Positions 5,726-59,977 of a DNA stretch of 64,000 bases are shown piece by piece. The stretch covers positions 682,001 through 746,000 of the forward strand of contig NZ_CP026994.1 of the NCBI RefSeq assembly GCF_013407165.1, given 5' to 3'. The DNA is from Nitrosopumilus oxyclinae. GTDB taxonomy: Archaea; Thermoproteota; Nitrososphaeria; Nitrososphaerales; Nitrosopumilaceae. The notes beneath the pieces are model-generated. The model saw only the letters and a program-made list of their open reading frames with translations. It did not search any database and was not told the origin of the DNA. Numbering within the stretch: position 1 is the stretch's first letter; every line of letters begins with the position of its first letter. The position numbers and the translations under genes were made by a program.

Positions 5726-6574
5726 CTAAGATTTTGTTTTTCTAACATACTGTTTTACATCGATGGTTTTGAGTGGTTTTGAAGCGTCCCATAGAAATGA
5801 ACATAATGTGAAAATATTGTCTACCATCTCTGATGAGTTTGTACATAGAGAAAAATCTGCATCTGCATTAGAATTATGAGACGATGCAGCAGAGTCAGAC
5901 ATTATCATTTTTTTATCCATCTGAACCACCATTCTTCCTTTAGATGGAAGTTTTCCTATTCGTGTTTCAGTGGCATTGAATCTTTTAACAAATGGTGCTA
6001 ATTTTGGATCAGTCATATCTACAAGTAATCTGACTTGACCTCCGTTCTTTTCACAAATGCTAATTTTTTCAGGTATTGTGCTATGATACATTCGTGAAAT
6101 ATCATCTAATGTTGTTGCAATGTATGTAATTCCAGTTGAATTTTCAATTAGGTGTGCAATGTCAGCATAGATATTTTGACGACCTTGGACTACTCTAAAT
6201 GTTGGAACTGTACTGACTTGACTGGTGCTAATTTCATTGTTAATTTTATCAATAATTGCTTCTCCTGATTTTTTTATTTTATTTACCTCGTCTTCTTTTT
6301 TCCCTAAAGCAATTTTTAATGCATCATGAGGATCTGCTGCAATACATAATTTTGGACTAGATAGTGTTGTTGAAATAATGTTTCTACTTACTAGTTTATC
6401 CACAGTTCTATACATTCTTGCTCTGTCAATATCTAATTCTTTTGCAAGAGCACTTGCAGTAATTGGTCCTGCTCTTAACAAGTTAAGATATACTTTAGCT
6501 TCCAAATCATCTAAATCTAAAATCTCTTCTAATTCAATTGCAATTCCAGTTACTTGTTCTTGATATGACATCAT
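5726..6574 (-). CDS. TrmB-family transcriptional regulator
   Basis: The 282-aa protein starts with a winged HTH (residues ~15-85): LDDLEAKVYLNLLRAGPITA, then SALAKELDIDRARMYRTVDK. It continues with a linker and a phospholipase-D-like C-terminal regulatory domain (FRVVQGRQNIYADIAHLIEN, then later RLLVDMTDPKLAPFV). This order is typical of archaeal TrmB regulators that control sugar or redox genes. The targets here are unknown. The upstream gap carries a 20-mer shared with the RHH gene. Confidence 0.85.
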   Translation of the reverse strand: MMSYQEQVTGIAIELEEILDLDDLEAKVYLNLLRAGPITASALAKELDIDRARMYRTVDKLVSRNIISTTLSSPKLCIAADPHDALKIALGKKEDEVNKIKKSGEAIIDKINNEISTSQVSTVPTFRVVQGRQNIYADIAHLIENSTGITYIATTLDDISRMYHSTIPEKISICEKNGGQVRLLVDMTDPKLAPFVKRFNATETRIGKLPSKGRMVVQMDKKMIMSDSAASSHNSNADADFSLCTNSSEMVDNIFTLCSFLWDASKPLKTIDVKQYVRKTKS

Positions 6575-6845: not shown

Positions 6846-7772
6846 TTACATTGGAATGTTAAACGCCACCACGGCCATTATGATCATTGCAACAACATGT
6901 TTTGTACCTGCAACATATGATCCGGCACCAATCTTTCCCGCCGCCAGTCCGCCAAACAATGCCTCGATGATTGCCATGTTAAACAATGCTGATTCTAATT
7001 TGTCAATTTCCATACTCGCAAGGGATCCGAATAATCCTTCAGTACCACTACCTGATGCTAGCAATCCTTCTTGGACTTTTTCAATTTCCGTGAAAAAACT
7101 AGTTGTAAGTAATACTGCCACTGCCAAGAACACCCCAAATGAAATGTAAATTGTGTATGTGTATGGTGCTAATGCTGATTTTCTACTTTTTTCAATATTT
7201 TGCATTTCTGATACGTGTTTCTGAATCATTTCTAGATTTTCAGTTACATCTCCTCCAATTTTCATTGCCATTTCCAACAACACCGTTACTCTTCTTGAAA
7301 CTCTAGTTCCAGTTCTTTCTGCAAAGTTTTCAAAAGCATCCTCAATCGGGGTTCCCCAACTAATATTTGCCCTGAGATTTTTTAATTCTGGCGTTAGTGC
7401 TCCCAGGTTTCTCTCACCAGCTTGCTCTATTGCTTTAATTAGATTCGCTCCACTTTGGACAGAACTTAACAAAGCCAGTAAGAATACGGGCATATTCCTA
7501 TCAATATTATCTCTTCTTTGAACTTCTTTTAGTTGGTGTATGGTTAATGGAATTATTCCTACCATTATTCCAAAAATTAATCCTACATCCCTAATTGTAG
7601 TTGAATCTGAATATTCTGAAAAATAGAAACTCATTGAGAGAACGCTAATTGATGCAATTAATGAAAACGTGATTGTCCTTAGAATGTTGTTATTTAGAAC
7701 TGATTCTGATGGCTCTAATGCAGTATATTTTTTAGTTTTGTTTTCTATTTTTTTCCTTTTTACAACTTCCAT
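6846..7772 (-). CDS. type II secretion/archaeal pilus F domain membrane protein (GspF/TadC-like)
   Basis: The 308-aa protein has two N-terminal membrane segments, then a cytoplasmic T2SSF-type helical domain: MPVFLLALLSSVQSGANLIK near residue 95, and RRVTVLLEMAMKIGGDVTEN. Further membrane segments close the C-terminus. GspF-like proteins form the membrane platform on which the secretion ATPase acts during pilus assembly. It is the last gene of a three-gene leftward operon (ATPase, GspF-like 1, GspF-like 2), 4 nt after its neighbour. Two separate F proteins resemble the paired TadB/TadC arrangement. Confidence 0.85.
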   Translation of the reverse strand: MEVVKRKKIENKTKKYTALEPSESVLNNNILRTITFSLIASISVLSMSFYFSEYSDSTTIRDVGLIFGIMVGIIPLTIHQLKEVQRRDNIDRNMPVFLLALLSSVQSGANLIKAIEQAGERNLGALTPELKNLRANISWGTPIEDAFENFAERTGTRVSRRVTVLLEMAMKIGGDVTENLEMIQKHVSEMQNIEKSRKSALAPYTYTIYISFGVFLAVAVLLTTSFFTEIEKVQEGLLASGSGTEGLFGSLASMEIDKLESALFNMAIIEALFGGLAAGKIGAGSYVAGTKHVVAMIIMAVVAFNIPM

Positions 7773-7776
7773 ACTT

Positions 7777-8700
7777 TTACCTCTTTGGCACCATTGTATC
7801 CATCATTACCAACATCAGTACTCCACTAAGTGGGATTACTGCAAATGTTAGAATATTCATCAATGTCAACAAATCAAATCCTGCAAGACTCGGACTCATT
7901 ATACCCATAATTGATAACATGATTACTGCAAGTAATGGAAATACAATCAGTAAAATTGTGTAAATTTCTGCAACACTCCCTAGAGATTCTGTAGTTTTTT
8001 GCATTAGCATTTTCTTTTCTTCTAACTGAACTTTTGCAGTTGCGTTAAAGTATTCTTTAAGATCTCCTCCTGATTGAACTGTAACTATTGCTCCTTCTAG
8101 TAATTCTGAATATGGTCCTGATGGAGTTCTATGTACTAAATCTTTGATGGCGCTAATCAAATCCATTCCTAAAATATCGATATTCCTTACGATAAATCTG
8201 GAGTCTTTTACAATATCTTCATCTGTGTCTTCTTTTGCTATTGCTTTGAAAATCCCTTCTAGTGTTAAACCGCTTGTTGCTAGAGTTGACATATATCCAA
8301 TAAAATGTGGAATTTCCTCAACCAGTTTTGCGGATCTATTTTTTACTCTAATAGCTGGAATCATTTGTAATATTCCAAATGTCATTCCAAAAAGCATCAA
8401 TCCGCTCAAGAGTGGGAGGATCATTCCGACGCTTGCTGGTTGAATGTTGATGAATTGAGCAGCAATAATCCCCATAATTATCCCACATACTCCTGCGATC
8501 ATGCTAAAGAATACCATACTTGAAACATAGACTTCAAATGGAATTGGCATCATTGCTTGTTTGATTGATTTGTCTAGTGATGTTAATTTTGGATGAAGAA
8601 ATTTAACGTGATCATTTAGTAATTTGTAACTGTAGATGTGTAGTTGTCCTACTGATTCTTCTTGAACTTTCTTTTGTTGTTTACTTCCAGCTAATTTCAA
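7777..8700 (-). CDS. type II secretion/archaeal pilus F domain membrane protein (GspF/TadB-like)
   Basis: The 307-aa protein has the same layout as its downstream neighbour. Membrane helices start near residue 55, a T2SSF domain follows (EEIPHFIGYMSTLATSGLTL, then LEGAIVTVQSGGDLKEYFNA), and two C-terminal membrane helices close it. Its start overlaps the ATPase stop by 4 nt (ATGA), so translation is probably coupled. It should act as half of a heteromeric membrane platform for pilin assembly (inference from family). Confidence 0.85.
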   Translation of the reverse strand: MKLAGSKQQKKVQEESVGQLHIYSYKLLNDHVKFLHPKLTSLDKSIKQAMMPIPFEVYVSSMVFFSMIAGVCGIIMGIIAAQFINIQPASVGMILPLLSGLMLFGMTFGILQMIPAIRVKNRSAKLVEEIPHFIGYMSTLATSGLTLEGIFKAIAKEDTDEDIVKDSRFIVRNIDILGMDLISAIKDLVHRTPSGPYSELLEGAIVTVQSGGDLKEYFNATAKVQLEEKKMLMQKTTESLGSVAEIYTILLIVFPLLAVIMLSIMGIMSPSLAGFDLLTLMNILTFAVIPLSGVLMLVMMDTMVPKR

Positions 8701-10316
8701 ATCTGCACCTCTAGTCTTTTTCTTTCATAGTATCTTTCAGGGTCTGCATAATAGTCCATTACGTTTGCAGATACTTCTTTGTGATCTCGAATATCATTTT
8801 TTACCATCCATTCTAATGCTAATCTTCTTTTTGTCAATTCATAATTGATTTTTTCTTCACTATCCCCATCTCGTTCTTTGAGTTTTCTAAAAATTACACT
8901 ATCTCCCATGTATTCATGAACATCTGTCTTTGGGTTCCACTTGAAAATCTCATGTGTTTTAATTTGACCTGTAGTTTCATCAACCCCGTCAATCTCTGAA
9001 ACTTGAATGATTCTTCTAAGTGATTTGTCTCCTACTCTAATTTTTAATTGAAGTGTTATCAAATCAAGACTGTTTGCGATTAGTGCCTTAGGTACATCCA
9101 TTGGAGATGATGTTAGTCTTGTCAGTGTTGCATCCACTGAATCTGCGTGAATTGATGAAAATCCTCCGTGACCTGTAGCCATTGCTTGAAACAATGTGTA
9201 AGCCTCTCTTCCTCTTGTTTCTCCAACAATTATGATATCTGGTCTTTGCCTTAGAGCTGCTCTGAGAAGATCAAATTGATTAATTTCTCCTACTTGTGTG
9301 TCTGTAAAGTTCTGCCTGGATACTGCCGGAATCCAGTTTTCATGAGGTAAATTTAGTTCTTGAGTATCTTCAATACTGACTACTTTTTCTCCTGGTCGGA
9401 TAAATGTGGCAAGTGCATTGAGTGCGGTAGTTTTTCCACTAGCAGTACCTCCTGCAACAAGCATAGTTGATTTTTTTTCTGCCAAATACCACATGTATGC
9501 TGCAATATCAATTGACATTGTTCCAAATTTTATCAAATCAATAACTGTAATTGGGTCTGCTCTGAATCTTCGTATTGTGAATGTACTTCCACGTTTTGTA
9601 ATTTCATGACCTAAAGTTAGATTAATTCTGCTTCCATTTGGTAATGATGCATCAATGATTGGGTCTGCCATAGAAACATGTTTTCCACAAATATATGCCA
9701 TTTTTCTTGAAAAATTATTTAATTCTACATCTTTTTCATATATGATGTTAGTTGGCATTGATTCATGCTCTCTATGCCAAATGTATATTGGAATATTTGT
9801 TCCATCACAACTAATTTCCTCTATCATATGATCACGCATTAATGGTTCTATCTTTCCAAGATAGACGAAATCTCTAACTGCAAAATAATTAATCTTTGCT
9901 ATGTTTTTTGGAGGAATTTTTAATCTGTATTTTTTAATCATGGATGTGATTTTCTTTTTTAATCTTCTTTCTGCATCTTTTTTTGATTTAATATCGTGCA
10001 ATGAAACAGTAAGTTCTGTCATTAGTAATTTTTTAATTATTTCAAAGGCCTTTTGATCACGCTCTGAGAGAACAGGTTCTATTACTTGATATCTTAATCC
10101 TCCTTTAGCTGTGGGATCTTTAATTATACCTGCATGAATCTCATTATTATCCCAATCTAGTTTTGAGAGCGTCATATATTTTGGAATTTTAAAATCTTCT
10201 TCTAATTCTTCTACAACTGTTTTAACCTGCTTTTTTTTGGGTTTGAAATCTAGTTTATTTGCAGGTTGTAATTTTTGCAATGCTGATAAACTATCTTTTA
10301 AAATACTAAATTTCAA
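8697..10316 (-). CDS. type II/IV secretion system ATPase (pilus assembly)
   Basis: The 539-aa protein is a GspE/FlaI/TadA-type ATPase. An N-terminal domain is followed by DGTNIPIYIWHRE (near residue 170), Walker A GGTASGKT (~290), an Asp box VSIEDTQEL, a Walker B-like DIIIVGETRGREA and a His box GFSSIHADS. It powers pilin polymerisation from the cytoplasmic face. The first ~100 residues are hydrophilic and Lys-rich. It heads the leftward operon with both F-domain proteins. A palindromic element plus TATA-like box lies 27-54 nt upstream and matches the pilin promoter. Confidence 0.92.
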   Translation of the reverse strand: MKFSILKDSLSALQKLQPANKLDFKPKKKQVKTVVEELEEDFKIPKYMTLSKLDWDNNEIHAGIIKDPTAKGGLRYQVIEPVLSERDQKAFEIIKKLLMTELTVSLHDIKSKKDAERRLKKKITSMIKKYRLKIPPKNIAKINYFAVRDFVYLGKIEPLMRDHMIEEISCDGTNIPIYIWHREHESMPTNIIYEKDVELNNFSRKMAYICGKHVSMADPIIDASLPNGSRINLTLGHEITKRGSTFTIRRFRADPITVIDLIKFGTMSIDIAAYMWYLAEKKSTMLVAGGTASGKTTALNALATFIRPGEKVVSIEDTQELNLPHENWIPAVSRQNFTDTQVGEINQFDLLRAALRQRPDIIIVGETRGREAYTLFQAMATGHGGFSSIHADSVDATLTRLTSSPMDVPKALIANSLDLITLQLKIRVGDKSLRRIIQVSEIDGVDETTGQIKTHEIFKWNPKTDVHEYMGDSVIFRKLKERDGDSEEKINYELTKRRLALEWMVKNDIRDHKEVSANVMDYYADPERYYERKRLEVQI

Positions 10317-10342: not shown

Positions 10343-10370
10343 GTTTTAACGCATGTTCGTTCATTTGAAC
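10343..10370 (-). promoter_or_regulatory. shared palindrome plus TATA box, ATPase operon promoter
   Basis: GTTCATTTGAAC (10359-10370) is a perfect 12-bp palindrome. Reading leftward, a 9-nt gap and TTAAAAC (10349-10343) follow, and the ATPase ATG is 33 nt from the box start. The same order and spacing occur before the pilin (14720) and the Asp-rich protein (18141). An ATGCGT/ACGCAT inverted repeat (10328-10333, 10349-10354) overlaps the box. Confidence 0.55.
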
Positions 10371-10451
10371 AACATTTTCCTTTTACTCTAAACATTGCAT
10401 AGAATATCACCATGGCAAGTGTTCTATTCGTATCATATGAGGTAATTTCTC

Positions 10452-11615
10452 ATGTTTAGAAGAAAAATCTCTTCAAATGATGCACCATTGGATGTAAAAT
10501 CTGAGCACAAATTATCTGGTTTTGGTAATATATCATCAATTTTTAAAGGAAATTCTGATGATTCTACTGTTGAATCTAGCCCTGAAACCATTGTTGATGA
10601 AGATCTTATTTTATCGCTAGAGGCTGATGTAGTAAAACCTTCTACCAGTAAGGCTGTAAAGTTGATTCAAGAAGTTCAGAAACTAGAGGACCGTACCATC
10701 AAACCATTTGTAGATTACAATGAAGGTCTTTTGTTTTATCCAATTTTATCAAAAATAGGGGAAATGCAAGATAATGTTACATGTCTTGATGATTTAGTTT
10801 CTGATGGAATTTTAGAAAAAAAAGTATATGAAAAATTAATTGTGTGTCCTGTACATCCTGAAACTTTTTCATCTAGCATGCGTTTGTATTGTCCCAAATG
10901 CCATTCAATGAGTGTTGAAAAACTTAATCTCTTTGAACATAAAAAATGTGGTTATATTACTGAAAGTATCAATTTTGATTTTACAGACCCAGATAATTCC
11001 AATTGTCCTTCTTGTAAAAAAGAAATTAAAAATTTTGAAAAAGAAGTACGGGTTCCTGCAATGTGGTATCAATGTGATGATTGTGAGGAAAAATTTGATA
11101 ATGCTGTAATTAAATTACATTGCAGAAAACATGAACATGATTTTGATACAAATTCTGGCCAATTTATTACAACATTTAGTTATAAATTAAAAAATTCTGA
11201 AATTTCAATTAATTCTGATACAAATCAAATCAAAGATGAATTGTTAAAATTATTACAGGGATTTAATTTTGATGCCAAACTCAATATTTCAATTAAAGGA
11301 AAAAGTGGAAATATTCATGAAATCCCAATATATGCAAAAAGTAAAACTAGTGGGGAGTCGATTTTAATTTTTATCCGAAATCAACCAACCGGAGTTGATC
11401 AGTCTGACATGAATTCCATATTGGTTCCAAAATTAGACATTGATCCGACAAATACTCTACTAGTTACTGTCTCTGGAATTAATGATGGAATTGAAAGCCT
11501 TGCTCAGCACTATGGTATTAATCTAATTTCAGAACCTGATTTTTCTCAAATTCTTTCTCGCGTAGAAGAGTTTGTTTCTGAATGGTATTCAAAGAATGGT
11601 GGCAAAAGTGAGTAA
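10452..11615 (+). CDS. TackOD1-like zinc-binding protein in the pilus locus
   Basis: The 387-aa protein has a variable N-terminus of about 80 residues. A Cys/His-rich module follows at ~95-215: LLFYPILSKIGEM, CPVHPETF, YCPKCHSMSVEKLNLFEHKK, CGYI, CPSCKK, YQCDDCEE and CRKHEHDF. This resembles the thaumarchaeal output domain TackOD1, found at the end of archaeal signalling proteins. The ~170-residue C-terminal part looks like a restriction-endonuclease-like or receiver-like alpha/beta domain (IFIRNQPTGVDQ), but this is unsure. No receiver domain is attached. It overlaps the first pilin gene by 20 nt, so it may regulate or assist pilus production (inference). Confidence 0.6.
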   Translation: MFRRKISSNDAPLDVKSEHKLSGFGNISSIFKGNSDDSTVESSPETIVDEDLILSLEADVVKPSTSKAVKLIQEVQKLEDRTIKPFVDYNEGLLFYPILSKIGEMQDNVTCLDDLVSDGILEKKVYEKLIVCPVHPETFSSSMRLYCPKCHSMSVEKLNLFEHKKCGYITESINFDFTDPDNSNCPSCKKEIKNFEKEVRVPAMWYQCDDCEEKFDNAVIKLHCRKHEHDFDTNSGQFITTFSYKLKNSEISINSDTNQIKDELLKLLQGFNFDAKLNISIKGKSGNIHEIPIYAKSKTSGESILIFIRNQPTGVDQSDMNSILVPKLDIDPTNTLLVTVSGINDGIESLAQHYGINLISEPDFSQILSRVEEFVSEWYSKNGGKSE

Positions 11616-12129
11616 TGTCTTTTTTAAAATTCCAGTAAAAAATAGACGTGCTGTTAGTCAGGTTATGGGCAGCATTGTGATTTTAGGAATTGTAAGTTCC
11701 GTAGGCTCTGTGATATTGTTTAATGGTATGAATAGTATAAGCGCATTTACCTATGATTTGTCATTCCATGAAAAATCAAAAAATCAAATTCATCGTGAAG
11801 ATATAATTTTTGAACATGTACGATTTGAACCTAACACTGATGATATTTCAATAGATTTGGCAAATATTGGAACGGTTGAGTCCACAATTACAAATATTAC
11901 TATTTTAAAAATAGATACCCAAGAAATTATTGCAAATTGGGTGGATGTAGATGATTCTATTCAGGTAAAAAATAATCAAAAAATAACTCTTGATGGTTCT
12001 GATATAATTTTAACCACTGGAACTCAAACATGGAATGATCCATATTACCTTAATTCTGAATACAAAATTTCTCTTACTACTTCAAAAGGGAATTTCATTA
12101 CTACTGTTGCGTCGCCATTTAATACATGA
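11596..12129 (+). CDS. archaeal pilin-like protein
   Basis: The 177-aa protein carries a class III signal: basic KNRR followed by AVSQVMGSIVILGIVSSVGS, a hydrophobic helix. This is the archaeal type IV pilin N-terminal pattern, cleaved by a prepilin peptidase before the helix. The rest is beta-rich and hydrophilic. The frame is open to 11572, but ATG 11596 is the first standard start. It overlaps the end of the TackOD1-like gene and is followed 1 nt later by the next pilin, so it is part of an operon. Confidence 0.75.
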   Translation: MVAKVSNVFFKIPVKNRRAVSQVMGSIVILGIVSSVGSVILFNGMNSISAFTYDLSFHEKSKNQIHREDIIFEHVRFEPNTDDISIDLANIGTVESTITNITILKIDTQEIIANWVDVDDSIQVKNNQKITLDGSDIILTTGTQTWNDPYYLNSEYKISLTTSKGNFITTVASPFNT

Positions 12130-12130
12130 G

Positions 12131-12835
12131 ATGAAAATGAATTACAAGTTTACTTTCAATCCGAAATATAATAAGGAAAAAAATTCTCGTTTAAGAAATA
12201 GACGTGGAGTTGCTGATATTATTAGTACTATGATGTTGATGGCAGTTACTGTAACTGGAGCAAGTACTTTGACTTATTTTATGAATGATGCATTTGTCAC
12301 TGGAAATCTTGGAACTGTATCTACATTGGATTCTTCATCGCTCAATCTTTTACTTCTTGCATATGATACACGAGATTCTGTAAATCTGTTAACTCTGTTG
12401 GAAGTTGACAATCTAACTGATTCACACTTGTGTAGGGCATCATGTGTTTCAAATCCAGACACAATTCCTTCATCTGGTGGAACTGAGTTTATTGTATTAC
12501 AACTTCAAAACAACGGTCTTAATTCAATATTTTTAGAAAAAGTTATCATTAGCGGTACAACTCATTCTTGGGATTCTTCTACATCGGGGCTTGATTTGGA
12601 TTTATCAGTTGGTGAATTTCCTGCAGATGGCATGTTTTCAATTTTATCTACTGGAAGCAATCCTAACTTGCAGAGTGAAACATTTGAAATTCAAAATGGT
12701 CAAATTGTCAACGTTCTGGTAAAACTTGATTCATCTAGTCCTGATATCCAACTTAACAAAGGAATTCCAGTCTCTCTAAATACTGGTGGAATGCACCTTG
12801 TAGAATTTTTAATTGATAGTGGTGATGCACGATAA
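12131..12835 (+). CDS. archaeal pilin-like protein
   Basis: The 234-aa protein has a ~27-residue hydrophilic leader, then RNRRGVADIISTMMLMAVTV, a class III signal and helix. A long extracellular region follows with two cysteines close together (CRASC), possibly a disulphide. The open frame starts at 12035, but ATG 12131 gives the correct leader and sits just after the preceding stop. It probably assembles as a minor pilin or pseudopilin. Confidence 0.75.
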   Translation: MKMNYKFTFNPKYNKEKNSRLRNRRGVADIISTMMLMAVTVTGASTLTYFMNDAFVTGNLGTVSTLDSSSLNLLLLAYDTRDSVNLLTLLEVDNLTDSHLCRASCVSNPDTIPSSGGTEFIVLQLQNNGLNSIFLEKVIISGTTHSWDSSTSGLDLDLSVGEFPADGMFSILSTGSNPNLQSETFEIQNGQIVNVLVKLDSSSPDIQLNKGIPVSLNTGGMHLVEFLIDSGDAR

Positions 12836-12855
12836 ATTTTGAAAAATCATCATTA

Positions 12856-14619
12856 ATGCCTAAAAATAGGCGTGGATTGTCCTCTGTTGTTGGAGCATTA
12901 TTTTTTACCGTACTGATGATTGCAGGATTTTCTGTTTTGAGTTTGGCTTTGGATGCTCAAACAGATATTGTAACTACTCAAAGAATTGTTTCGGATTTAG
13001 AAATAAAAAAACAACAAGAGCAGTTTGGATTAATAGTTTCAACTGATGCAAATAACTTTCTTGATGTTGGTGTAAATAATTTTGGTCAGAATCCCGTTGA
13101 AATCTCTAGTATTTGGATAACAAACAAAACTTTGCCCACTCAACCTGTTAATCGCTATGATGTAAATTATGATGATGCATTTGTTCCATCTGGTTTTACG
13201 TCAAATGTTGTTGAGAATCAAATATTGCAAATGATTCCTGATACTTATGATATCAAGGTAATTTCTTCATTTGGAACAATTAAAGTTACAGAGTTAACTG
13301 TAGGAACAGGACCTAGTTCATCTGGGTTGCGTGCTGAACTCGTAACAGATCCCCCTGATGTAATTATTGGACAAAATGTTACAATAGCCATGGTTGTAAC
13401 AAATACAGGGAATTCATTAATTAAAAATGTTGAACCTGATACACTGTCCTTTGTTGGAACAGGTTCTGGTTCTGTTGTTGCATCTTCATCACATACTCCT
13501 CCAAGTGTTGATTTAGATAGTGGTGCATCTGTAATGTTTACTTGGGATTATCAGGTAACTGGTGCTAGTTCAGATCTTTTAACTTTTTCAGCAGTAGCAC
13601 GTGGTGATGATGTAATTCCTGATGATGTGTCTAGCAATGTTGTATCTGATGTTAGTATATTGAGATTGCCAACTGATGGTGGAAGTGGAGAAAATGATCC
13701 TGATATAATTAACGAGGAATTACTTGCACGTCCAAAGCTATTTCTGACAATTCCTTCATCTCAAGGAGATTCTGGTCAAAAAGCATTGTGGGGTGTAAAT
13801 ATTGCAAATCCTGTAAATGCTCCAATGGAGGTAACTAAATTATCATTAACTGCATTTTCTCCAGGGGCAAATAACAATGATAAATTATTTGCATCAAATT
13901 GTCAAGCTGAAAATATTTTCCCCACTGGAACTAACGATTGGGATTGTCCATCGGAAAACATCATAATGTGGCAAGATTTTACTAATCCCGTTACAATCCC
14001 TCCGAATTCCACAGAATCTTTCTTGGTTAAAGTATTGCCTGGCTCAATTGCTGGCCAAAATATTTTAGAATCTATTGTGGTCCAAGCATCTGTTTTTACC
14101 AATGTTGGCTCATTTGGAAAATCAGGATATCAAAGTACAATGTATGATGGAGCTGATGTTATTGGTAATGTTTATCTTTCAGATACTGTTAACTCTGTAC
14201 TTAGTACTGATATTCAATCTTCAAGAGTTGGCATTATCCCAAATTCTGTTGAAACATTTAACATTGTATTTGCTGACTTGGACACTGATGATAACACATT
14301 CATTGATTCTGGTGGAAAATTAATAATTAACATTCCTAAAGAATGGACTGACGTAACTATTCTTGGTGGTACTTCTGGTTTTGTGAGTACTCCTTCTGTT
14401 ACTGTATTTGGAGATGGTTCTACACAAATTATAGGAATAACTAGTTCTAATTTAGGTACATCATCAAATGTTGCAGATACAATTCAATTTAGTGCAAGGG
14501 CGCCAAATATAACAAATGATCAAATGTATGTAATGTATGTATTGGCTCAGGGTCAGACAGATAATAATTTCTCAGTAGGACCTTTATCTGAAATTGTCCT
14601 GCAAGTCGATGGCTCTTAA
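12856..14619 (+). CDS. large pilin-like surface protein with CARDB-like domains
   Basis: The 587-aa protein starts MPKNRRGLSSVVGALFFTVL, a class III pilin signal with its helix. Beta-sandwich regions follow, e.g. DPPDVIIGQNVTIAMVVTNT at ~170 and MWQDFTNPVTIPPNSTESFL at ~370. These resemble CARDB/adhesion-type domains. It is far longer than a structural pilin, so it may be a tip adhesin or minor subunit (inference). It lies 20 nt after the preceding pilin gene and ends 52 nt before the major-pilin promoter region. Confidence 0.75.
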   Translation: MPKNRRGLSSVVGALFFTVLMIAGFSVLSLALDAQTDIVTTQRIVSDLEIKKQQEQFGLIVSTDANNFLDVGVNNFGQNPVEISSIWITNKTLPTQPVNRYDVNYDDAFVPSGFTSNVVENQILQMIPDTYDIKVISSFGTIKVTELTVGTGPSSSGLRAELVTDPPDVIIGQNVTIAMVVTNTGNSLIKNVEPDTLSFVGTGSGSVVASSSHTPPSVDLDSGASVMFTWDYQVTGASSDLLTFSAVARGDDVIPDDVSSNVVSDVSILRLPTDGGSGENDPDIINEELLARPKLFLTIPSSQGDSGQKALWGVNIANPVNAPMEVTKLSLTAFSPGANNNDKLFASNCQAENIFPTGTNDWDCPSENIIMWQDFTNPVTIPPNSTESFLVKVLPGSIAGQNILESIVVQASVFTNVGSFGKSGYQSTMYDGADVIGNVYLSDTVNSVLSTDIQSSRVGIIPNSVETFNIVFADLDTDDNTFIDSGGKLIINIPKEWTDVTILGGTSGFVSTPSVTVFGDGSTQIIGITSSNLGTSSNVADTIQFSARAPNITNDQMYVMYVLAQGQTDNNFSVGPLSEIVLQVDGS

Positions 14620-14664
14620 TTTTTGTTCAAATTCAAAAACATACGTACAAACCAGTTAATTGTA

Positions 14665-14692
14665 GTCCATTTTGAACAAAGATCTCTTTAAC
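14665..14692 (+). promoter_or_regulatory. pilin promoter with half-site TTGAAC
   Basis: GTCCATTTTGAAC (14665-14677) is an imperfect copy of the GTTCA-TTGAAC palindrome. TTTAAC (14687-14692) follows after 9 nt, and the pilin ATG is 33 nt from the box start. The preceding TGTAGT also precedes the 18090 copy. Confidence 0.5.
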
Positions 14693-14719
14693 ATCTTTTT
14701 TAATTCTAAGAAATTCATA

Positions 14720-15301
14720 ATGACAAAACTACAGTCAAAAATGACTTCAAGAAGAGCAGTTGCTCCAGTAATCGCAACACTTCTTTTGGTAGCAATCGCA
14801 GTGGTTGGTGGAAGTATTGTCTTTGTGTTTTCACAAGGATTTTTCAGTTCTGCTCAAATCAGTGGTTCACCAAACATTGAATCTCTAAAATTCACAGGCT
14901 ATGATGCCTCAGATGGTACTACTCTAGCAAACCATGATGGTACCACATATCCTGCAACAAATACACCAGGAAATGGTCTTGTTGTAGGTGAACAAGTAGG
15001 AGTTTATGTACAAAGTAACAGTGTAGGTAAACTTACTCTAAGTGAAGTGAGAATTGGAGGTACAGTATACAACTATACTTCTGTTGATCCTGCCCCACAG
15101 GGTTCATTCAATGTTCTTACAAGAGGACCTAGTACAATACTAGGATCATCTTCTGCAGAAGTTCAACCTGGTCAACAGGTAACAGTAATCGCTACACTTG
15201 ATGAAAACATCAAGTCTGGAAGAGACACACAGTTCAAGTTAACAACTGCAAACGGTGCTGTCTTTGTTGGAACTGTTATCGCTGGTCAACAAAGTGGATA
15301 A
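14720..15301 (+). CDS. probable major archaeal pilin
   Basis: The 193-aa protein starts MTKLQSKMTSRRAVAPVIAT and continues LLLVAIAVVGGSIVFVF. This is a textbook archaeal type IV pilin or archaellin-like N-terminus with class III cleavage expected before AVAPV. The rest is Gly/Thr/Ser-rich and beta-structured. It has its own promoter, and its codon use looks less AT-biased than its neighbours, consistent with high expression (impression only). The frame is open to 14672, but the promoter spacing and signal fix ATG 14720. It is the best candidate for the filament subunit. Confidence 0.82.
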   Translation: MTKLQSKMTSRRAVAPVIATLLLVAIAVVGGSIVFVFSQGFFSSAQISGSPNIESLKFTGYDASDGTTLANHDGTTYPATNTPGNGLVVGEQVGVYVQSNSVGKLTLSEVRIGGTVYNYTSVDPAPQGSFNVLTRGPSTILGSSSAEVQPGQQVTVIATLDENIKSGRDTQFKLTTANGAVFVGTVIAGQQSG

Positions 15302-15350
15302 CTCCACCCTTTTTTCCTTTTTATGAAAAAAAATGGAGTGAAAAATAAAA

Positions 15351-18068
15351 ATGGAGAAAAAAATGAAAACAAAAAAACCAATCCTCTTCTTACTTGCTAC
15401 AATTCTATTATTTTCTGGAACTTTTAGTCCTGTTTCGGCACAAAATTTGGAGGCATTATCTGATTATTCGATAAAATTAGCAATATCTCCATCTCATTTG
15501 GAAAGTGGAGTTTCTGAGCACCATATAGGATATGTTTTTGTTCTAAGTAAATTTGGAGTCCCTATTACTTCATCTAATGATGTTCCAATCAGTCTAAGTT
15601 CTGACGATCCTTCTATTGCATATGTTCCAAACAAAATTGTTTTAAAGGCCAATGAAGAATTTGCATCGTTTCCTGTGACAACCAGTGAAAAATCCGGATC
15701 CACTACAATTACTGCTAACCTTGATGGTAAAATTACATTTCAAAAAATTGATGTTGGTACAGATGAAACCTATCTTCCCGATGATTTGATTTTAGAATTA
15801 AACCTTCCAACAAATAACATGCATGTGAATTCTAAAATGCCATTTACAGTTTTTCTAAAAACTAGCGATGGTGTTATAGTTCGTGCACCTAATGATGTTG
15901 ATATTTTGTTAGATTATGATGGACTTTTGGCAACCACTAATTCACAAATTCTAACTATTAATTCAGGTGATTATTATGCATGGGGTACTATCTCTGCCTA
16001 TGATAAAGTGGGAAATACTTTCATTCGTGCAATTCATGAAGATTCTGGTCTTGATGTAGCTAAAAGTATCCAAATTTCATCCACTCTTCCTACGTCATTA
16101 CAATTATCTATATTCCCAAAATTAATTCCTGCTGAGTTTGATAGAACTTTGAATATTTTTGTAAGCGTTGTTGATTCTGATGGCAATCCGACAAAAACTC
16201 CTAATGATATTCCACTGGATTTTTTCTCCAGTGAACAATATCCAATTGGTGAAAATCTTGATAAAATTAGCAAACAAGTAGAAAAACCCATGATAAAAAA
16301 GGATCAGTTTGGATACTTACTTCAGCAGAAATATAGTTTACAAAACTTACTTGCAAATGATATTTTAATTGGAGTTAGTTCTGAAGGATTTGGCACTGCC
16401 ACTGACACGTTTCGAACAATAGGGGAATCTATCGAAATGGATCAAAGAAATCGTCCAAGTGATAATAATTTTGATGATAAAAATTATGATACCACTGTAT
16501 CTGTTTTTGGTTTGAGTAAAATTCCTAGCAACGCTACAGCATTTTTTACATACCAATTATCGATGATTGAAGAAGACGGTGATGATGATGGGTTTAGACC
16601 TGATGGCAAAGAAATTCGAATCCATCCTGAATGTCTCCAAGAATCTGATGAGTCTAATGATGAGGATTCTGAAGAAATAACTCATAATACTGAATTATCT
16701 TCTGAAGATATTATTTTGTACAGTATAGATTGTTTAGAAGAAGATGAACTGTATCCTATTCAATCTAATGAAAATCAATACTCTGATGGATTTGTTCAAA
16801 AAATTAATGTAATATCAAGTGACGATCAGAAAGCTACTATTGTTGATGGAGGGAAAATCCTCAGCTCATATTCTTATGGGACATCTACAATTTCAACAGG
16901 CCAAAAAACTGGACCTGTAAAAATTTCTACATCCATTAATGGTGTAGGTACTGGTTCATTTACTACTGAAGTAATTAATACACTAGAACAAAAAGAAGTT
17001 AGATTATTTTCTCCTACTGGGTTTGATAATATAATTTTTGATCGTGATGGATTTTTTGATATGTTTTTAATTGCACTTGATGCAAAAGAACGACCAAAAA
17101 TTATGAAAGAGACAGGAAAATATTTGATAACTCCAACAAATGGATTAGTTGAGATAAAAAAAGATGATACTTTTACTTTTACACAATTACGAAGTGACTC
17201 ATTTAACATATCTGAATCAGAGACAAAAATTGTTCTAAATGTGGAGCCTATTGGGGAAAATGCTAATTTGAATTTGCAAGGAAGTGCTAATTTTATCACT
17301 CATCCTACATCTCAAATACAAATTTCAATACCTGTAGAAAAAATGAATGCTGATCATCAAGAAAATATCGGTATTGTACAACTGGTAGATCTGCAAGGAA
17401 ATCCTGTCATTCCCAAATTTGATATAAAATCAAAAATTACTTCTTCAAAAGACTCTGTAGTTCGGATTCTTGAAAATGTTATGATTCCTGCAGGTTCATC
17501 CTACACTAAATTTAACATTGAAACAACTGGTTCTGTAGGTAATGCTGTAATTTCTGCAAGTGCAAAGGGCGTGAATGGAACATCTATCTATGTTACTACT
17601 GCTTCCTCTCAATCACAATTAAAAATATTCACAGGAGGATTGGATTCTGAAATTCCTGTTGATAAACCCATTGAATTTAAATTATTTGTAGATGATGAAA
17701 ATGCAGATTCAGTATCTGGCGCTTCGATAAAAATCAGTGCAAATTCTGAGGATGCATTAATTACTCCAAATGTCGTTAGAACTGGTTCTGATGGCAGTGC
17801 AATTGTGAGTTTGACTGCATTGAAAGGTCCTGATATTTCATTTGAAATTATTGCAACTGCTGAAGGTTATGCTGAAGGAAAAGATTCCTTTACTGTGAAT
17901 GTTGATGCTCCTGAACCTGTATTTGACTCAATAGATTTGGACTTGCCTGAATGGATAATTTACATTGTAATTGGTGGAATCCTGATGGTTGGTGTTGTTG
18001 TCTTTATGTTCTTGAGAAAATCTAAAACTAATTTAGAAGAAGAATGGGAAGAAGAGGAAGAACTATAA
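15351..18068 (+). CDS. large membrane-anchored surface protein with Ig-like repeats
   Basis: The 905-aa protein has an N-terminal signal peptide (ILFLLATILLFSGTFSPVSA). A long beta-rich ectodomain with repeated Ig/bacterial-Ig-like segments follows (e.g. SEKSGSTTITANLDGKITFQ at ~110 and VRTGSDGSAIVSLTALKGPD at ~820). An Asp/Glu-rich insert lies near 430-480 (EDGDDDG, SDESNDEDSEE). It ends with a transmembrane helix (IIYIVIGGILMVGVVVFMFL) and a short acidic tail (EEEWEEEEEL). It is probably an S-layer-associated or adhesion protein. It lies 49 nt after the pilin gene, in the same orientation. Confidence 0.75.
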   Translation: MEKKMKTKKPILFLLATILLFSGTFSPVSAQNLEALSDYSIKLAISPSHLESGVSEHHIGYVFVLSKFGVPITSSNDVPISLSSDDPSIAYVPNKIVLKANEEFASFPVTTSEKSGSTTITANLDGKITFQKIDVGTDETYLPDDLILELNLPTNNMHVNSKMPFTVFLKTSDGVIVRAPNDVDILLDYDGLLATTNSQILTINSGDYYAWGTISAYDKVGNTFIRAIHEDSGLDVAKSIQISSTLPTSLQLSIFPKLIPAEFDRTLNIFVSVVDSDGNPTKTPNDIPLDFFSSEQYPIGENLDKISKQVEKPMIKKDQFGYLLQQKYSLQNLLANDILIGVSSEGFGTATDTFRTIGESIEMDQRNRPSDNNFDDKNYDTTVSVFGLSKIPSNATAFFTYQLSMIEEDGDDDGFRPDGKEIRIHPECLQESDESNDEDSEEITHNTELSSEDIILYSIDCLEEDELYPIQSNENQYSDGFVQKINVISSDDQKATIVDGGKILSSYSYGTSTISTGQKTGPVKISTSINGVGTGSFTTEVINTLEQKEVRLFSPTGFDNIIFDRDGFFDMFLIALDAKERPKIMKETGKYLITPTNGLVEIKKDDTFTFTQLRSDSFNISESETKIVLNVEPIGENANLNLQGSANFITHPTSQIQISIPVEKMNADHQENIGIVQLVDLQGNPVIPKFDIKSKITSSKDSVVRILENVMIPAGSSYTKFNIETTGSVGNAVISASAKGVNGTSIYVTTASSQSQLKIFTGGLDSEIPVDKPIEFKLFVDDENADSVSGASIKISANSEDALITPNVVRTGSDGSAIVSLTALKGPDISFEIIATAEGYAEGKDSFTVNVDAPEPVFDSIDLDLPEWIIYIVIGGILMVGVVVFMFLRKSKTNLEEEWEEEEEL

Positions 18069-18089
18069 TTATTTCAGAATCTGTAGTTT

Positions 18090-18118
18090 GTTCAATTGAA
18101 CATCTTTAATTTTAAAAT
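18090..18118 (+). promoter_or_regulatory. shared palindrome plus TATA box before Asp-rich gene
   Basis: GTTCAATTGAAC (18090-18101) is a perfect 12-bp palindrome. TTTTAAAAT starts 8 nt later, and the ATG at 18141 is 31 nt from the box start. TTTAA at 18105 is an alternative box. Confidence 0.55.
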
Positions 18119-18140: not shown

Positions 18141-18908
<768 letters not shown>

Positions 18909-59770: not shown

Positions 59771-59977
59771 AATATTTGTAATGATTGGTATTTTGAAAAA
59801 TTCATAAAATTGACCATGTCTTGTATTTTGATCAAAAAGGGTTGAAAAAGTGATCCATTACCCACTCCTGCAATGTTGAGCCTGATGTTTGAAAAATTCC
59901 ATGCATGAATAATTTTGTTCAATTTGCACACACGTTTTCTTTTAGTCTAATCTGCTAAATCAATTACAGAGTCATCT

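Follow-up and report, generated by a model that had tools for sequence, protein, structure and literature searches.

A conserved operator at type IV pilus and surface-protein promoters of Nitrosopumilaceae and a candidate TrmB-family regulator

The pilus locus and its promoter elements

We analysed a 64,000-nucleotide (nt) stretch of the Nitrosopumilus oxyclinae genome (1.585 Mb, one contig; positions 682001-746000 of NZ_CP026994.1), hereafter the window, in whose numbering coordinates are given. It holds a type IV pilus locus in which palindromic operators stand at a fixed distance from the TATA boxes of pilus and surface-protein genes. An assembly ATPase and two TadC-like proteins are encoded on the minus strand, and a TackOD1-domain protein, pilin-like genes, the major pilin and an Ig-like surface protein on the plus strand, with the domains of a thaumarchaeal type IV pilus locus all found (PF00437, PF00482 twice, PF07790/TIGR02537). 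The closest named relative of the ATPase belongs to a Nitrosopumilus metagenome-assembled genome (95% identity). Thaumarchaeal pilus loci with a double-zinc-ribbon arCOG06883/TackOD1 protein have already been described (PMC4858521, PMC5847659). The genes are as follows.

5726-6574, minus: TrmB-family regulator, candidate reader of the operator (PF01978, E=1.8e-13; fold match to TrmBL2/TrmB; co-occurrence with the operator)
6846-7772, minus: TadC-like membrane protein 2 (PF00482, E=9.4e-17)
7777-8700, minus: TadC-like membrane protein 1 (PF00482, E=3e-14)
8697-10316, minus: type IV pilus assembly ATPase, T2SSE/FlaI-like, first gene of its operon (PF00437, E=1.2e-41)
10452-11615, plus: TackOD1-domain protein, opening the divergent pilin-like operon (PF18551, E=2.2e-22)
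11572-14619, plus: three pilin-like/adhesin-like genes of the TackOD1 operon (open reading frames; gene order conserved)
14720-15301, plus: major type IV pilin (PF07790, E=4.2e-6; TIGR02537)
15351-18068, plus: large Ig-like surface protein after the pilin (weak Ig-like matches; ortholog in genome G018 with its own operator)
18141-18908, plus: secreted Asp-rich surface protein with His/Lys/Asp repeats (open reading frame)

Two perfect 12-bp palindromes (10359-10370 and 18090-18101) and an imperfect copy (14665-14677) had been proposed for this locus in the original prediction, and all three sites were found where it placed them. Their surroundings read as follows.

10354-10374, minus: operator 1, TGTTGTTCAAATGAACGAACA, between the divergent ATPase and TackOD1 units (core palindrome 10359-10370), kept in at least 37 orthologous loci
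10344-10349, minus: TATA box TTAAAA of the ATPase operon, 9 nt from TGAAC and 33 nt before the TTG at 10316; spacing conserved
10380-10387, plus: probable TATA box CTTTTACT of the TackOD1 operon, 9 nt from the other side of operator 1
14624-14649, plus: probable second, distal operator-like element of the pilin promoter (TGTTCA...ACGTACA)
14661-14681, plus: operator 2, TGTAGTCCATTTTGAACAAAG, major pilin promoter, kept in 28 loci and detected by a model trained on ATPase promoters
14687-14693, plus: TATA box TTTAACA of the pilin gene, 9 nt from TGAAC and 33 nt before the ATG at 14720; conserved
18087-18103, plus: operator 3, TTTGTTCAATTGAACAT, of the Asp-rich protein gene (ATPase-trained model, p=0.0004)
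18111-18118, plus: TATA box TTTTAAAA of the Asp-rich gene, 9 nt from TGAAC and 30 nt before the ATG at 18141

Only 18090-18101 is a perfect palindrome (GTTCAATTGAAC), whereas 10359-10370 reads GTTCA-TT-TGAAC, an inverted repeat with 5-bp arms and a 2-nt centre; the imperfect copy is GTCCA-TTT-TGAAC, with a 3-nt centre. The fixed spacing to the TATA box, put earlier at 8-9 nt, is exactly 9 nt from the right arm TGAAC at all three sites, and the expected 31-33 nt between TATA box and start codon held approximately, the actual values being 33, 33 and 30 nt. Because the same 9 nt separate operator 1 from the probable TackOD1 TATA box, the three sites serve four units, a fourth having been missed when three were counted. 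This distance is equal in most orthologs of operator 1, which come from Nitrosopumilus, Nitrosarchaeum, Nitrosotenuis and relatives; in Nitrosotenuis the TackOD1 TATA box reads TTTACAT.

The distal element of the pilin promoter is an inverted repeat in several orthologs (loci L044, L045, L060 and L070) and is matched by the model of the proximal site in L044, L045, L048 and L070. Relatives of the Asp-rich gene in G032, G048 and G122 bear the operator or a degenerate form of it. The Asp-rich protein itself has a long HDK repeat followed by a long C-terminal Asp run; it is fast-evolving and occurs in few relatives.

A motif next to the TATA box at a fixed distance might be an extended core-promoter element read by a dedicated paralog of transcription factor B (TFB), and many archaeal pilus loci are linked to TFB homologs (PMC4858521). 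We consider this very improbable, however, as two divergent promoters use the motif symmetrically, it forms a palindrome of about 20 bp, and a second copy stands further upstream in the pilin promoter.

Conservation of the operator

The core palindrome alone proved uninformative since its counts equal the control both in the genome and in the window, and counting it as evidence was dropped. Matches with up to two mismatches number 28 in the window against 29.3 expected by chance, and GTTCA-N1-4-TGAAC occurs 10 times genome-wide against 10 in the reversed control, most of the other copies lying within genes. Chance is excluded by three other lines of evidence: conservation, held-out cross-prediction between two promoters, and the genome-wide specificity of the operator together with its TATA box.

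For the first of these, 121 genomes of the family were searched for orthologous ATPases, 47 regions were extracted and the syntenic genes were placed. Footprinting over more than 40 orthologous loci showed that the operator is longer than the palindrome, approximately TGTTGTTCA-N2/3-TGMAC(N)ACA, and that it precedes the genes of the pilus ATPase, of the major pilin and, in loci that have it, of the Asp-rich protein. ATPase promoters of Nitrosopumilus and Nitrosarchaeum read TGTTGTTCAwwTGAACGAACAAGCGTTAAAAC and those of a Nitrosotenuis-like genus (including G082) TGCTGTTCATTTGCACTCACAATCTCTTATG, while the pilin promoter reads TGTAGTCCATTTTGAACACAAATCTCTTTAACATC, or in the Nitrosotenuis-like genus TGCTGTGTTGAATGCACAGCATTTGCCTTAACA, with 7-bp arms. 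The distance from TGMAC to the TATA box is 9 nt in both promoter types by hand alignment, the ATPase alignment being gap-free. Operator and 9-nt spacing recur in about six named genomes outside all models (L136-L139, L146, L149), and named GTDB genomes agree.

Far from being absent from orthologous pilus loci, the operator is present in essentially all close orthologs; it is missing only from a divergent locus type (G020, G021, G059, G116) and from one rearranged locus (G069). It was not found in Bathyarchaeota, Nitrosocaldus, Asgard or other distant relatives of the ATPase.

In two genomes the divergent promoters are separated by an insert, of 1.9 kb in G080 and about 90 bp in G098, with an operator left at each end. 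Split promoters with an operator at both ends are consistent with both promoters needing one, and could also be a by-product of the insertion. The G080 insert (L046:5628-7523) has imperfect terminal inverted repeats of about 27 nt and two open reading frames without a Pfam match; it sits in the operator, whose 21 bp, TTGTTCGTCCATATGAACAAC, are duplicated at both ends. The G098 case (L043:13856-13974), with about 90 bp between two operator copies at the same divergent promoter, looks like another insertion into the operator.

Cross-prediction and genome-wide specificity

Covariance models of the ATPase-type and pilin-type promoters each failed to detect the other type, owing to a 1-nt difference in spacing between the two kinds of operator. 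We therefore used a spacer-tolerant half-site model, trained solely on ATPase promoters with a centre of 2-3 nt allowed and evaluated against 10179 background windows. It recovered the pilin operator with a median empirical p of 0.0009, as well as the Asp-rich operator listed above; the reverse test, trained on pilin promoters, gave a median p of 0.0002. The weakest cases, in some genomes, had p of 0.01-0.05. Measured from the ATG, the pilin operator lies at -59/-60 in most Nitrosopumilus loci and at -63 to -73 in others.

With a sequence-only model that joins operator and TATA box (R1), this genome's two training promoters scored 35 and 32 bits and the next match 19 bits. In the genus scan, 25 of 40 genomes had no match at E<=0.02. 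Across the 121 family genomes, 67 of the 69 matches at E<1e-4 fall at ATPase/TackOD1, pilin or Asp-rich promoters (hand count), many of the 69 being training promoters; genomes lacking the pilus locus almost never had such a match. These scans scored no more than the best 53 or 150 first-look candidates in each genome and may have passed over weak sites. Held-out matches include pilin promoters in G002 (three paralogs in new places), G018, G060, G075, G081, G087, G115 and G120, and in G018 the surface-protein gene carries its own operator. The remaining two matches precede one orthologous gene in G063 and G071. A site of the same form before a very small zinc-ribbon gene (C1:855341) is conserved in G068 and G074. 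Other weak matches in the genome (window position 59909, C1:851303 and more) are mostly intragenic or without a TATA box at 9 nt and were taken as chance.

The gene in G071 and G063 encodes a cysteine-containing protein (VNKSLLQYYCGHCNN...), and its operator-like site has a similar TATA spacing (L255, L256). Operator-like sites also precede the genes of a small-protein family (...ERFGRVR..LMKQLR..YGD.IANRALYRINKRIS) in two genera (L267, L278, L281, L283), which by its upstream sequence is a possible extra member of the regulon.

Frequent occurrence before unrelated genes had been named as a finding that would speak against a dedicated operator. Several genomes, pilus-less ones included, do have the bare TGTTCAnnTGAACA in front of a phasin-like gene, but not the full operator-TATA module: TTTGTTCAwwTGAACAAA, sometimes doubled 29 bp apart, stands about 110 nt upstream of this gene (MSTQPQTSDAFAMYKQN...; L092, L134, L219, L223, L228; G000 C1:890000), with no TATA box at 9 nt. 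Judged by its sequence, it is probably a similar site of another regulator.

One regulator controlling pilus and surface units together, as had been proposed, is well supported by this conserved operator, found mainly at pilus and surface promoters and at a fixed distance from the TATA box.

The candidate regulator

The TackOD1 protein (10452-11615) had been put forward as that regulator. Its gene adjoins operator 1 and is conserved in the locus, and some TackOD1 proteins are fused to receiver and winged helix-turn-helix (wHTH) domains (PMC5847659). The protein encoded here, however, is cysteine-rich and double-zinc-ribbon-like, and Pfam recognises in it the TackOD1 domain alone and no DNA-binding domain; its gene is itself under the operator. 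Moreover, the operator-less locus of G059 retains a TackOD1 gene, and the domain occurs far beyond the range of the operator (PMC5847659). That TackOD1 binds the palindrome is thus highly unlikely, and while the idea of a dedicated regulator stands, a syntenic TrmB-family protein fits this role better.

A short upstream open reading frame, apparently leaderless, overlaps the TackOD1 start:

10412-10459, plus: upstream open reading frame including a Shine-Dalgarno-like GAGGT, with a counterpart in 18 of 18 leaders

In these 18 leaders it has 12-16 codons; it opens where transcription of the operon is expected to begin, the GAGGT lies within it in most cases, and it stops without exception at +1 or +8 of the TackOD1 start. 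The arrangement suggests translational coupling, or merely a conserved initiator CCATGG.

The TrmB-family gene (5726-6574) follows the ATPase/TadC genes in most loci. Its product has an N-terminal winged helix (50.6 bits for PF01978 against a cut-off of 25.6), which ranks among its best conserved parts, and in the predicted structure a helical linker leads to a TrmB-like C-terminal sensor domain. The model (predicted local distance difference test score 84.5) matches TrmBL2 (E=1e-12) and TrmB (3qph, E=1e-10) over nearly the full length; the template modelling score is low, about 0.4, as though the domain arrangement differs.

A syntenic TrmB gene was found in 36 of 37 operator-bearing loci versus one of five operator-less ones in the same 121 genomes; G080 is counted here as operator-bearing, a covariance model matching its operator at 36.8 bits. 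The window's own genus (G059) and the Nitrosotenuis-like one (G116) are among the four or more genera that the operator-less loci span. A relocated TrmB gene in G040 is divergent from the pilin gene, with two operator matches in between, and the TrmB gene of G002 is found about 2 kb away from a pilin operator. On this sequence evidence, the most likely reader of the operator is a regulator of the TrmB family whose gene neighbours those of the pilus.

Several observations weigh against this assignment. The association (Fisher p ~6e-4, from a tabulation that scored G080 as operator-less) ignores phylogeny. At the rearranged ATPase gene of G069 the operator is missing although TrmB is present, and in G024 (genome 88% complete) the operator is present with no TrmB detected. 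In the window we found no convincing operator at the TrmB gene itself. The two operator types differ by 1 nt in spacing and are not cross-detected by covariance models, and the core palindrome before the phasin-like gene, which occurs in pilus-less genomes as well, shows that a related site has another use. Finally, seven TrmB-family proteins in the genome score above the cut-off, any other of which could be the reader; the protein at 5726-6574 is consequently the best candidate, not proof.

The last point leads to an alternative in which the operator is real and co-controls the same genes, with an unlinked winged-helix protein (another TrmB, or a MarR/Lrs14-type regulator) as its reader and the adjacent TrmB in some other role. 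The core palindrome also precedes another TrmB gene (G130) and a wHTH gene (G109) besides the phasin-like gene, and the Lrs14 regulators of Sulfolobus pili are encoded outside pilus loci (PMC4858521). Still, the presence, absence and relocation of the syntenic TrmB track the operator, and we regard an unlinked reader as possible but doubtful.

A TrmB-family gene also lies about 5 kb from that of a second pilus/archaellum-type ATPase (42% identity; G000 C1:771174 and C1:776400); judging by such gene neighbourhoods, the pairing of TrmB regulators with filament loci may be more general.

Proposed mechanism

We propose that these sites are probably the operators of a dedicated Nitrosopumilaceae type IV pilus regulon, bound and activated by the TrmB-family protein at 5726-6574. 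A dimer of this winged-helix regulator, encoded at the end of the ATPase/TadC cluster, would bind TGYTGTKCA-N2/3-TGMAC(N)ACA, an imperfect palindrome of ~20 bp. The operator extends up to or slightly past the upstream border of the TFB recognition element (BRE), with the TATA box at the fixed 9 nt, and the bound regulator would recruit TFB or the TATA-binding protein (TBP). One operator would thereby activate both the ATPase/TadC operon and the divergent TackOD1/minor-pilin operon. The other sites would do so for the operon of the major pilin and surface protein and for the Asp-rich protein gene in genomes that have it. A ligand detected by the C-terminal domain of TrmB would in this way prompt the joint production of motor, pilin and surface proteins.

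The direction of control is suggested by the position of the operator just upstream of the BRE, with 9 nt between TGAAC and the TATA box at three promoters and their orthologs, as is typical of archaeal activator sites. TrmBL1 activates from sites upstream of the BRE/TATA and represses from sites downstream (PMC4706686, PMC4158304), and EarA, TFB-RF1 and similar archaeal activators recruit TFB from sites upstream of the BRE (PMC5512572). By this analogy activation appears likelier. The same regulon, possibly with the same regulator, might instead be repressed, TFB being kept from the BRE until a signal releases the protein: at the ATPase promoter about 4 nt separate the TATA box from the outer part of the right half-site (TGAACGAACA), which therefore extends into the BRE. 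Most of the site nevertheless lies upstream of the BRE, the invariant TATA spacing is that expected for contacts with TFB/TBP, and TrmBL1 sites in this position activate (PMC4706686). We therefore hold repression to be unlikely.

On a broader scale, and with about even chances in our estimation, a TrmB-family protein may have moved from metabolic control to become master activator of an archaeal type IV pilus. The bidirectional operator would then balance the motor and minor-pilin operons, and relocated or duplicated pilin and surface genes would carry their own operator-TATA module.

Comparison with known systems

Next to nothing is known about how ammonia-oxidising archaea regulate their surface structures. 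We found no earlier description of this operator or of a pilus regulator from these organisms in the literature searched, and a review of the TrmB family calls the thaumarchaeal member uncharacterised (PMC4158304). Now that a conserved operator can be paired with a named candidate regulator and defined targets, the question can be tested directly in vitro, and the operator may serve as a marker for finding further co-regulated surface genes.

The locus itself corresponds to the described thaumarchaeal arCOG06883/TackOD1 pilus loci, with a secretion ATPase, TadC proteins, pilins, an adhesin-like protein and a double-zinc-ribbon protein (PMC4858521, PMC5847659); term searches of these two papers gave no cis operator for the locus and no TrmB regulator.

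The closest parallel is TrmBL1 with the Thermococcales glycolytic motif in Pyrococcus and Thermococcus, where a TrmB-family protein likewise uses a palindrome upstream of the BRE/TATA at the activated promoters of several operons (PMC4706686, PMC4158304). That site, in contrast, is TATCAC-N5-GTGATA and serves sugar metabolism, whereas the operator described here has another sequence and pilus and surface targets. The TATCAC-N5-GTGATA motif is not present at these promoters, and its matches with two mismatches in the window are near chance.

EarA, of the euryarchaeal archaellum operon, is similarly a dedicated activator of a type IV pilus-like filament with sites immediately upstream of the BRE (PMC5512572, PMC10665913), but its sites are repeated 6-bp sequences rather than a long palindrome with a TrmB candidate. 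A PF07381 search for an EarA homolog in the present genome (G000) gave no match, the same search being positive in M. jannaschii. AbfR1 and other Lrs14 proteins of Sulfolobus also use a PF01978-type winged helix to control archaellum and adhesive pili (PMC4858521); they are small one-domain proteins encoded outside the pilus loci, unlike the two-domain TrmB-family protein encoded within the locus here.

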